A stretch of DNA of 64,000 bases, from positions 1 to 64,000 of the forward strand of contig NZ_SLXL01000012.1 in NCBI RefSeq assembly GCF_004345735.1, read 5' to 3'. This document shows positions 1 to 2,624 of the stretch, piece by piece. The notes under the pieces are model-generated. The model was not told the DNA's origin. It searched no databases and was given only the letters and a program-made list of their open reading frames with translations. A program made the position numbers and the translations under genes. Position 1 is the stretch's first letter, and each line of letters starts with the position of its first letter. Origin of the DNA: Rhodovulum adriaticum (GTDB lineage: Bacteria > Pseudomonadota > Alphaproteobacteria > Rhodobacterales > Rhodobacteraceae).

Positions 1-94
1 AAGCAGAGGAGGCATTCTACGCACGCTTGAAAGCCAACGAAAAAGCAGCCTAATCATTGAACCAGAAACTCTCCGGTAAACCCGGGGCGGTTCA
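1..94 (+). mobile_element. Right end of an IS3-family-like insertion sequence
   Basis: Bases 3-53 finish an open frame ending in residues AEEAFYARLKANEKAA, which resembles the C-terminus of an IS3-family OrfB transposase. It is followed by a terminal sequence at 69-94 whose reverse complement begins TGAACCGCCCCGGGTTTACC, the kind of inverted repeat found at IS3-family ends. The metE reading frame resumes at base 95, inside a codon. The element runs off the left edge, so its other end, full transposase and target duplication cannot be seen. The family assignment is from memory of the repeat type. Confidence 0.72.
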
Positions 95-765
95 GGTCCG
101 CCTATGCCCAATCCCTGACAGAACGCCCGATGAAGGGCATGCTGACCGGGCCGGTGACGATCCTGCAATGGTCCTTCGTCCGTGACGACCAACCGCGCGA
201 GGCGACCTGCCGCCAGATCGCGCTGGCCATCCGCGACGAGGTGATCGACCTGGAGGCTGCCGGCCTGCCTGCGATCCAGATCGACGAACCGGCGTTCCGC
301 GAGGGGCTGCCGCTGCGCCATGCGGACTGGTCGCACTATCTGAACTGGGCGGTGGATGCGTTCCGGCTGTCCTCCTCGGGTGTGCGCGACGACACACAGA
401 TTCACACGCACATGTGCTATTCCGAATTCAACGACATCATCGCCGCCATCGCCGAGATGGATGCCGACGTGATCTCGATCGAGACATCGCGCTCGGACAT
501 GGAACTGTTGGATGTGTTCGGGCAGTTCAAATACCCCAACGAGATCGGGCCGGGCATCTGGGACATCCATTCGCCCCGCGTGCCGCCGCAGGCAGAGATG
601 GCCGCGCTGTTGCGCAAGGCCGCCGAGGTGATCCCCGCCGAACAGCTTTGGGTGAACCCCGATTGCGGGCTCAAGACCCGCGGCTGGCCCGAGGTGAAGG
701 CCGCGCTTGCCAATCTGGTGGCGGCGGCGCGGGGGATGCGGCGGACGGCACTGGCCGCCGAATAG
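95..765 (+). pseudogene. metE: 3' part of metE interrupted by the insertion sequence
   Basis: This is the C-terminal ~220 residues of cobalamin-independent methionine synthase, which methylates homocysteine from 5-methyl-tetrahydropteroyltri-glutamate. The zinc and substrate ligands are visible: His and Cys in THMCYSEF, Glu in SIETSRSD and Cys in NPDCGLKTR. The family is about 750-780 residues, so some 540 N-terminal residues are missing on this side. The frame upstream of base 61 is closed by a stop within the element. Bases 95-96 (GG) are the last two bases of what is normally a Trp codon before S-A-Y-A-Q-S-L-T, so the insertion split that codon. A Met at 130 could start a 211-residue product, but a catalytic C-terminal half alone should not be active. 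Confidence 0.88.
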
Positions 766-816
766 GGTATCGGGGCGATGCGCGGGGGAATGGCCCGCGC
801 ATCCCCCGGCCTGCAT

Positions 817-1947
817 TCAGTGCATCCTCGCGCCCGGCCGCGCCGCGGCCAGCGCCGCGACCGCGGACCAATCGACCCCACGGCCCGCAAAGGGCGCGCG
901 GGCCTGCGTCAGAAACTCCAGCCGGTCGGGCCATTCAGACAGGGCGCCTGTGGCCCGCCCGCAGGTCAGGACCGTCCGCCCGGGACGCTCTCCGGCCAGC
1001 CATGCGCCAAGCGCCCGCGCACGCCGCGCATCGCCCGCATCGATTCCAAGGCGTCCACCATAGACCATGACAGGGCATCCTTCGGTGGCGTCCAGAACCG
1101 GGGCCAGGGTCCGCGTCTGGGCCGCAGGCAGGAATTTCACCGAATACCCCGATGCGCGCAGCAGGTCGGCCTTTACCATCGCGCCGATAATCTCTGTGGC
1201 ATTCTCGGGCACCAGCAGGACGACCGCCCCCCGAGACTGGATCGGTTCGCAGGACCGGCCCGCGCGTAACAGCAGTCGGTTCAGCCGGACGCTCGCCAGG
1301 GCGACATCCAGCCCCGTGAACCTGTCCTCGGTCCAACCCTGCGCAAGCATTCGGCACAGCGCATCGGTGAAAGCCGCCCGCGCGCGCGGCGAGGTCAGCA
1401 AAACCTCGGGCAAGGGCGCAAGCGCGGCCTCGCCCCCCTTGGCAAGGGGCTGGACAAGGTCAGCTGCGAGATCCTCCCAGATCGGACCGCCCAACCCATC
1501 CGCCAGGTAAAGCCGGGCAGCGGCATCAAAGGCGCGGGCTGCCTGCGCCGCCCGGGTGCGGCCGCGATCCCCGCCGGCCAGCGGAACCAGGATGGCCGCG
1601 CCATCGGATCCGGTCGGCCCGATAACCCGCATCGACCAGTCCGAAAACCGCCGCTGCCCGATCCAGCCCGCACATAGAACGGCGACCTCCTCATGGCGCG
1701 GATCTCGCTCGATCCGGGCCATCAGGTCACACACCTCTGCCGCCGGCCCTTCGAGCCACTGCAAAAACAGCCCGTGGCCGTGCAGCAGAACGCCGGACAC
1801 CCCCCTTTCGCGGTTCTGCCCCGCCGAGGCAACGGCAAGCGCCTCGGCCTCGGGCCGGGTCAGCGCGCGGCGGGCGCGGCTGACATAGGCCAGCCTGAAC
1901 ACATTCGTTTCATCGGTCCGTGCGGGAAGCGCTTCGCTCAGCAGCAT
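817..1947 (-). CDS. AppA-like BLUF blue-light sensor with C-terminal SCHIC/B12-binding-like domain
   Basis: This 376-residue protein has an N-terminal BLUF (FAD-binding) domain, residues ~15-110. With the ATG at 1947 as start, the photocycle residues fall at Tyr21, Asn45, Gln63, Trp104 and Met106, the same numbers as in Rhodobacter AppA. Residues ~225-350 resemble the cobalamin-binding fold used by AppA (SCHIC, heme) and PpaA/AerR; the region around [10 protein letters not shown] lacks the DxHxxG cobalamin-ligand motif. AppA is ~450 residues with a Cys-rich tail; that tail is absent here. AppA antagonises the repressor PpsR, but no photosynthesis genes are nearby, so the target is unknown. 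An SD (GGTGGAG) precedes the ATG; a GTG at 1962 is a weaker alternative start. The gene follows a cobalamin riboswitch. Confidence 0.88.
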
Positions 1948-1956
1948 CCATGAGAT

Positions 1957-1971
1957 CTCCACCCTGGGTGG
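1957..1971 (-). promoter_or_regulatory. Possible SD-sequestering hairpin of the riboswitch leader
   Basis: On the minus strand CCACC-CAG-GGTGG can fold over the Shine-Dalgarno GGTGGAG just ahead of the ATG at 1947. This could be the expression platform through which the upstream cobalamin aptamer controls translation. The stem is short (5 bp), so this is tentative. Confidence 0.4.
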
Positions 1972-2063
1972 CGGGATGTGGCCGGGTGCGCATGACCTGT
2001 CCGGCCGCCTTGGCCGGTCCGCACCGTGTCCGCCGGGGCACCCCGCCCGTTGTCAACACCAAG

Positions 2064-2243
2064 CAGATGGCAGGTCTCCTGGCTCGTGGGTCGTCGCCTG
2101 TCCGGACCTTCCCGGGCACATCGCCCAGTGGCATTTCCGAACCCGCTCGCCACATACAGTTGCGGGGGCAGCCGCGGCCCTGGCACAAGGCCTTACCGCG
2201 TTCCCTTTTCAGGCACGCCCCAGTCGGACGCGCACACCATCTG
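2064..2243 (-). promoter_or_regulatory. Cobalamin (AdoCbl-type) riboswitch
   Basis: Read on the minus strand, the aptamer has the conserved core GCTGCCCCCGCAACTGTA, the box GCCACTGG, the GGGAAGG segment and the 3' signature GAGCCAGGAGACCTGCC. A closing P1 helix is formed by CAGATGG (2243-2237) and CCATCTG (2070-2064). The aptamer is about 180 nt, normal for the class. The next gene on this strand is the BLUF sensor, starting 116 nt further on; no other open frame intervenes. B12 riboswitches usually precede cobalamin synthesis, transport or B12-independent isozyme genes. Confidence 0.96.
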
Positions 2244-2624
2244 GCACGATGCTAAGTGACCGCGCCCCCCTTGTCGAAGGAAACCTGCCAACCGCGACAC
2301 CGCCATTCCGAATTTGACCTGGGATCGCATTGATCTGCCACGGAACAGATCGACCCGCGCAAGAGCGCGCGATGGCCGGTCTATGGCGCCACGCAACGCC
2401 AATCGGCGCGCCGTCCTGCAAAGGCCCGACTGGCAGCCCCGCCGGATCATGTCGTGGACTGGGCAGATCGATGACGGGGTACTGCCAGCGCCGTCGAACG
2501 TAGCTACGCCCGAATCTCCCCCAGCACCTGCGCCGCACGGCGGATGTGGTGGACTTAAGGAAACGGCGACAGGTTCAGTGAACCCGGGCGCACCTCGCAA
2601 ATATCTGCAAGCCACTGAAAGGAC
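2244..2624. other. Gene-free stretch upstream of the riboswitch
   Basis: About 380 bases between the riboswitch and the tRNA-Val pair. The open frames here (both strands) are arginine/proline-rich and show no family resemblance or credible ribosome-binding site. It should contain the minus-strand promoter of the riboswitch leader, but I cannot pick out a convincing one. Confidence 0.5.

Follow-up and report, generated by a model that had tools for sequence, protein, structure and literature searches.

Why would vitamin B12 set the amount of a blue-light photoreceptor? The question is raised by the start of contig NZ_SLXL01000012.1 (C12) of Rhodovulum adriaticum (RefSeq assembly GCF_004345735.1), the first 64,000 nucleotides of which were analysed here and are called the window. 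Near the beginning of the window, on the minus strand, a cobalamin (B12) riboswitch aptamer stands before a gene for a protein with an N-terminal BLUF domain and a C-terminal SCHIC-type, B12-binding-like domain (the BLUF-SCHIC gene). B12 riboswitches are known to govern B12 synthesis, B12 uptake or B12-independent enzymes. An initial annotation of this DNA proposed that the riboswitch serves the photoreceptor gene and that B12 acts on the protein as well. As outlined below, riboswitch control of the gene is well supported.

The riboswitch and the gene behind it

The aptamer match (Table 1) spans the whole of model RF00174 and, at 123.1 bits, passes the gathering score of 31.5; its score also lies within the range (100–135 bits) of the eight cobalamin riboswitches found genome-wide in R. 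adriaticum. The next gene on the same strand is the open reading frame (ORF) at 1947-817, which begins about 90 to 105 bases beyond the aptamer and contains the BLUF domain. Its more likely start is the ATG at 1947 rather than the GTG at 1962: a ribosome-binding-like GGTGGAG was seen by eye at 1963-1957, ahead of the ATG, and with this start Tyr21, Asn45, Gln63, Trp104 and Met106 fall at their numbers in AppA of Cereibacter (Rhodobacter) sphaeroides. The initial annotation had therefore read the complete aptamer, the gene that follows it and these five residues correctly. The flavin residues Tyr21, Asn45 and Gln63 are kept in all five intact riboswitch-controlled proteins described below.

The C-terminal half had no match in Pfam at E up to 1, AppA_SCHIC included. 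A profile of five homologues matches AppA nearly over its full length (4hh0, chain 15-366, E 3.3e-36) and also AerR (7te2, E 2.8e-6), which bears out the annotated cobalamin-fold domain. An NCBIfam scan of a three-protein alignment returned no family, and a search of a phage collection returned no match. Compared with the homologue of Rhodovulum euryhalinum (NG86), the gene has a nonsynonymous substitution rate (dN) of 0.183 and a synonymous rate (dS) of 0.744; dN/dS is 0.25, and the gene is therefore under purifying selection.

Conservation of the pairing

Comparison of the locus across related genomes, which the initial annotation had suggested as a check, finds this gene behind the riboswitch in seven genomes, in two of them as a decayed copy. 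The nearest homologue (72% identity) is that of R. euryhalinum DSM 4868; the next (46–47%) comes from Rhodovulum sulfidophilum DSM 1374, where it sits on a plasmid of 113,163 bases. Both have a riboswitch directly upstream on the same strand. More distant homologues, likewise directly behind a riboswitch, occur in a metagenome-assembled genome (MAG) labelled gammaproteobacterial (G788; 39–40%) and in G133 (30–33%), where the locus reaches the contig edge. The decayed BLUF-SCHIC copies with a riboswitch are those of G010 (1195-1890 of the locus) and G357 (1175-2324 of the locus). Leaders score 120–130 bits in four of the intact cases, 102.5 in G133, 101.3 in G010 and 85.5 in G357. Within the clade, a riboswitch is thus present at 5/6 intact and 2/2 decayed copies, in differing neighbourhoods, and it is this recurrence over such a range of protein identities that upholds the proposal that the riboswitch serves the BLUF gene.

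Outside the clade, no cobalamin riboswitch was found within the flanks examined (about 1.5 kb, some shorter) of 46 control BLUF loci (0/46) or of six further BLUF-SCHIC genes (0/6: AppA of G066, identified by eye from agreement with AppA residues, and the genes of G358, G106, G077, G905 and G893). The controls are the scanned BLUF matches minus the clade members and these six genes; many weaker BLUF matches lie outside the count, L089, L093, L106, L127 and L128 are longer frames counted without regard to their C-terminal parts, L013, L041 and L106 carry stops within the BLUF match, and the AerR/PpaA-type loci L018 and L029 were scanned for a riboswitch but are outside the 46.

The clade is rare in the genomes searched. 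In a profile search of 389 relatives, E values typical of a clade member (2.5e-133 or better) were reached only by R. adriaticum, R. euryhalinum, R. sulfidophilum and G133; G077 followed at 8.9e-48. Among the matches listed, the clade profile found no member besides that of R. adriaticum in 385 alphaproteobacterial genomes (next best E 2.1e-26) and none besides that of G788 in 296 genomes of the order of this MAG (next best E 5.6e-29), with only the best few candidates per genome scored in both searches. The genus searches for G133 and G357 covered one genome each.

Two other owners of the riboswitch were considered. That it is the orphan of a lost gene, a refuting condition set by the initial annotation itself, was rejected, since the same gene follows it in all seven genomes; that it belongs to metE was rejected, since metE is convergent and on the other strand. 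None of the eight riboswitches of R. adriaticum lies between C3:323129 and the start of metE near C3:328250.

The riboswitch could also be a relic, or a mobile regulatory cassette, whose control over the BLUF gene has been lost or never existed. Copies on plasmids, the insertion-type gene (by eye) adjoining the G010 copy and the clade member that has no riboswitch all suit such an origin. Yet no gene intervenes in any of the seven genomes, leader identity among intact copies falls to about 51% with the aptamer retained, and 16 of the 54 predicted base pairs show, in one or more of five leaders, changes at both partners that preserve the pairing. Since purifying selection on the protein and the promoter-like site that four leaders have at the edge of the aptamer also count against it, we give this explanation very little credence.

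Promoter-like site and leader

The promoter-like site, of sigma-70-like form, is the only one in a scan of 600-2900 (shuffles gave a mean of 0.1). The pattern TCGACA-N16-18-TANCAT, picked after the site was seen, occurs once in the whole window against a chance mean of 0.01. In four Rhodovulum leaders (R. adriaticum, R. euryhalinum, R. sulfidophilum and G010) the site has the same placement and spacing with respect to the aptamer, with TAGCAT, TACCAT and TAACAT as variants of its -10 element; the scan also covered G788 and G357, and in the latter only a weaker site was seen.

No intrinsic-terminator-like site was found in 600-2900. In the putative expression platform, CCACCC (1971-1966) could base-pair with GGGTGG (1964-1959) in the ribosome-binding site, and this site is predicted to be paired in local single-sequence folds of the window leader. 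The element GGGCGGGGTGC, conserved behind the aptamer, was considered as proof of an expression platform specific to the clade and was dropped, as similar GGGGTGC elements stand behind other riboswitches of R. adriaticum.

Light could in principle act on the RNA itself: photolysis of adenosylcobalamin in daylight would empty the riboswitch and so raise the amount of receptor. The aptamer is of the RF00174 class, and light cleaves adenosylcobalamin, as in CarH (PMC8123684), but the same would then hold for all eight riboswitches of this class found in R. adriaticum, and we regard this version as very improbable.

Ligand positions and phylogeny

Whether B12 could act on the protein was assessed at the known ligand positions. 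His145 of AerR is the lower cobalamin ligand; the heme of AppA is bound by His284, at an offset of two residues (PMC9144470). At the His145 column, all five riboswitch-controlled proteins and the clade member of Cereibacter azotoformans have Glu (Glu252 in the window protein); AppA and two AppA relatives (G358 and G106) have Pro, Gln or Arg; and the proteins of G077, G905 and G893, together with six AerR/PpaA proteins, have His. The column of His284 reads Ala, Ala, Cys, Ser and Ala in the five riboswitch-controlled proteins (Ala250 in the window protein), and among AppA and its relatives G358 and G106 only AppA itself has His there. The Cys-rich tail of AppA is absent from the five proteins and from that of G358 and is present in those of G066 and G106.

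The absence of a DxHxxG motif, pointed out in the initial annotation, is therefore confirmed, the His column being occupied by Glu252. The same cannot be said of its claim that B12 also acts at the protein level. Because Glu stands at the AerR His145 column in 5/5 of these proteins and no His at the AppA His284 column, such an input is unlikely, as judged from aligned residues. A two-input model, with B12 acting on the messenger RNA and also binding the C-terminal domain, draws on the relationship of this domain to that of cobalamin-binding AerR (E 2.8e-6); however, the cobalt ligand is replaced by Glu in the C. azotoformans protein too, and the three relatives that keep the His have no riboswitch in the flanks examined. 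We consider that model highly unlikely. A better frame than a light-plus-cobalamin receptor would be a B12-independent photoreceptor expressed at low B12, and this frame fits the mostly B12-independent gene neighbours.

The riboswitch-controlled proteins group in one clade of a maximum-likelihood tree (support 96/93, or 98/96 with the C. azotoformans protein, which falls inside it). Next to it stands the G077 protein, which keeps the His and has no riboswitch. The replacement of His by Glu and the gain of the riboswitch thus fall in about the same part of the tree, a placement that depends on few sequences.

The BLUF proteins whose C-terminal B12-binding-like domain keeps the cobalamin His, encoded in G905 (L124 868-1950 minus, PGEPHILG), G893 (L125 832-1947 minus, PGEPHYLR) and G077 (L030 1501-2586, PGNPHFLG), all without a riboswitch in their flanks, are, judging from their residues, possible flavin plus cobalamin double photoreceptors.

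Comparison with known systems

With AppA, the window protein shares the N-terminal BLUF domain and its five residues, the SCHIC-type C-terminal half and the presence of PpsR in the genome, and it differs in lacking heme ligand His284 and the Cys-rich tail and in its B12 riboswitch, which is found neither at AppA of G066 nor at the two AppA relatives. AerR and PpaA, antirepressors of CrtJ/PpsR, have a related C-terminal domain and the same presumed partner, and R. adriaticum has aerR too; in contrast to the window protein, they bind cobalamin through His and have no BLUF domain. The protein is AppA-like by sequence but lacks two AppA features as well as the AerR ligand, and we assign it to neither.

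Two regulators of other bacteria are also among the closest known systems. HP1 of Rhodospirillum rubrum is an AerR relative that acts on photosynthesis genes without a cobalamin motif (PMC10734443); unlike the window protein, it has no BLUF domain, its gene adjoins ppsR, and the word 'riboswitch' does not occur in the main text of that paper. LdaP of Dinoroseobacter shibae is a flavin-dependent blue-light antirepressor of PpsR that exists alongside B12-dependent PpaA (PMC10890935), but it has a LOV rather than a BLUF domain, and the main text again does not contain 'riboswitch'. A 2013 paper (PMC3738892) called a BLUF protein of plasmid 1 of R. sulfidophilum an AppA ortholog, at about 22% identity; it is very probably encoded by the plasmid copy of strain DSM 1374 compared here, and the available part of that paper mentions neither a riboswitch nor a B12 link. 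Among the papers listed in searches of the open-licence literature, none describes BLUF or AppA-type genes under riboswitch control, which is not proof of absence. Each component belongs to a known kind; it is the joining of the riboswitch to a BLUF-SCHIC gene that appears to be new.

Cobalamin riboswitches of metE and ribonucleotide reductase genes likewise precede B12-independent alternatives; the case of P. megaterium, in which a cobalamin riboswitch represses B12-independent MetE in line with the needs of MetH, is an example (PMC9600662). Those riboswitches regulate an enzyme or transporter, whereas the regulated gene here is that of a sensor.

A possible role at PpsR

AppA is a BLUF antirepressor of PpsR (PMC5362033), and in D. 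shibae the interaction of PpaA with PpsR depends on added cobalamin (PMC10890935). PpsR scores over the curated cut-off in 8/8 genomes searched (R. adriaticum, R. euryhalinum, R. sulfidophilum, G010, G133, G357, G077 and G788), and an AerR/PpaA gene with the cobalamin His lies beside ppsR in six of the eight. R. adriaticum is one of these: its ppsR is on contig C1 with an aerR of its own, and the BLUF-SCHIC gene is not beside it. Reaction-centre genes are present in 16/16 genomes of the genus.

We favour, as modestly probable, the reading that the window encodes a flavin receptor held by a B12 riboswitch, made at low B12 and standing in for AerR/PpaA at PpsR. The gene's own promoter would start a transcript that opens with the riboswitch and encodes the AppA-like BLUF-SCHIC protein. 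With ample B12, the riboswitch would silence the gene, probably by masking the ribosome-binding site; once B12 runs short, AerR/PpaA would lose its chromophore, the riboswitch would open, and a receptor with flavin only would be made. This receptor would sense blue light through flavin adenine dinucleotide (FAD), relieve PpsR repression of photosystem genes in a light-dependent manner and so take over the light input to PpsR from the cobalamin-requiring antirepressor. By analogy, it would be the photoreceptor counterpart of metE or of a B12-independent ribonucleotide reductase, that is, a reserve alternative under a B12 riboswitch. More tentatively, and falling somewhat short of what we would call probable, the vitamin supply may decide a swap of chromophores, with cobalamin in AerR when B12 is present and the riboswitch-induced flavin receptor when it is absent, the cobalamin site having been lost at about the time when riboswitch control arrived. 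The B12 riboswitch, with a ligand that light destroys, would on this view add an input of light at the RNA level.

Several observations weigh against the favoured reading. On the side of the target, PpsR occurs in 165/394 sampled genomes of the family, which makes co-occurrence weak evidence; no AerR/PpaA with the His motif was found in the ppsR flanks examined of G357 and G077; and with the heme ligand and Cys-rich tail of AppA missing, the output of the protein may differ. On the side of the RNA, the proposed ribosome-binding-site mechanism is based on single-sequence folds, the alignment of five leaders yields a small covariation term (-0.8), and the scan for promoter-like sites found none in G788. 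As for the clade, G133 is a long branch, the position of which was flagged as unsure by the tree program, and its protein is without Trp104 and Met106. The AlphaFold model is poor, with a mean predicted local distance difference test (pLDDT) score of 47.2 from a three-sequence alignment, and no fold search was based on it. The parts, their conserved coupling and the missing ligand residues are observed; repression by B12, the mechanism at the ribosome-binding site, the FAD photochemistry, PpsR as target and the replacement of AerR are inferred.

The coupling is also not universal, as the clade member on plasmid pORIO2 of C. azotoformans (L165 3989-5092) lacks a riboswitch even in a search at E up to 1 and carries Phe in place of Tyr21. 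Tyr21 is essential to BLUF photochemistry. Its replacement may mean that this copy has left the system, although it is a single case.

A photoreceptor under a B12 riboswitch ties vitamin supply to the regulation of photosynthesis, hints at a reason for phototrophs to have PpsR antirepressors of both the flavin and the cobalamin kind, and would be a natural two-layer (vitamin, light) control part. If vitamin supply does decide such a swap of chromophores, the 'B12-independent isozyme' logic of enzymes would reach a sensory photoreceptor. R. sulfidophilum, which is cultured and not a pathogen, offers a simple test of a photoreceptor under B12 riboswitch control.

Gene neighbourhoods

The chief rival concerns the target: the gene would be repressed by B12, but its product would act on neighbouring B12-independent metabolism, tuning the nearby carbon and nucleotide genes by light, for example through an ScfR-type regulator, and not on PpsR. 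The neighbouring enzymes, metH excepted, are B12-independent routes to methionine, to deoxyribonucleotides and for the use of acetate and propionate. At the end of contig C3 of R. adriaticum, riboswitches precede a homocysteine S-methyltransferase gene and nrdD, followed by genes for a radical-SAM protein, an ScfR-type regulator and a thioesterase and by metE. R. euryhalinum has aceA, the riboswitch, the BLUF gene, metE and prpB-, prpC- and prpD-like genes (aceA and metE by eye); in R. sulfidophilum the order is aceB, aceA, riboswitch, BLUF gene. On pORIO2 of C. azotoformans, a plasmid typed as conjugative, aceB and aceA precede the BLUF gene, and ScfR, thioesterase, prpD, prpC and prpB genes and that of the anaerobic ribonucleotide reductase activase (nrdG) follow it, with B12-dependent metH also near. 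In G357, a riboswitch and an nrdI/nrdB gene lie ahead of the decayed copy. G788 has a second riboswitch, which faces the other way, toward a gene for the large chain of ribonucleotide reductase, after which lies an ORF resembling a class I small chain (by eye).

The recurrence of aceBA, prp-like, metE, nrd and ScfR genes in several genomes speaks for this rival, as do the missing AppA heme ligand and Cys tail and the presence of a clade member in C. azotoformans, which belongs to a genus known for AppA. Against it stand the near full-length profile match to AppA, a known partner of PpsR, and the occurrence of PpsR in all eight genomes, the MAG labelled gammaproteobacterial among them. We rate action on neighbouring metabolism as rather unlikely and retain PpsR as the favoured target.

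Table 1. Features at the riboswitch locus of the R. adriaticum window
Feature	Position	Strand	Details
Cobalamin riboswitch aptamer (RF00174)	2052..2256	minus	123.1 bits, E 2e-30, model positions 1-189
Promoter-like site TCGACA-N17-TAGCAT	2249..2277	minus	overlaps 5' edge of aptamer match
Putative expression platform	1957..2048	minus	predicted; element GGGCGGGGTGC at 2048-2038 and CCACCC at 1971-1966
BLUF-SCHIC photoreceptor gene	817..1947	minus	376 amino acids from ATG 1947; GTG 1962 possible; stop 819-817
BLUF domain	1630..1899	minus	residues 17-106 of the 376-amino-acid form; PF04940, E 7.5e-26
SCHIC / B12-binding-like domain	958..1383	minus	about residues 189-330; profile match; Glu252, Ala250
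metE 3' part (B12-independent methionine synthase)	92..765	plus	convergent neighbour; severed from 5' part by IS3-family element
14-bp inverted repeat	773..807	unassigned	between convergent metE and BLUF stops; 93% complementary, 7 nt between arms

Other features and observations

The metE gene of R. adriaticum is split, with its 5' part at the end of contig C3 and its 3' part in the window; the stretches concerned are L077 17719-20000 and window 1-765, and the IS3-family element that interrupts the gene contains an ALIL element; contigs C3 and C12 are presumably adjacent. The strain thus probably lacks this B12-independent methionine synthase, yet it keeps the riboswitch and BLUF gene beside it. 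The inverted repeat at 773-807 is a possible shared terminator of the two convergent genes, although the 600-2900 scan did not report it as terminator-like, as it has no T run. In R. euryhalinum, an isocitrate-lyase-like frame upstream of the riboswitch (L010 3-374) contains an in-frame TAG.

The other riboswitches of R. adriaticum stand before genes for a TonB receptor and a small Cys-rich protein, before a DUF4198 gene accompanied by a cobalt-transporter-like gene, before a DUF1636 gene accompanied by cobW- and cobN-like genes, and before a truncated DUF4198-like ORF; this ORF and the cobalt-transporter, cobW and cobN names were assigned by eye. The last of these riboswitches, on contig C5 (L080 8952-9484), points into the truncated ORF, and the unit resembles, by eye, the intact unit of riboswitch, DUF4198 and cobalt transporter on C3.

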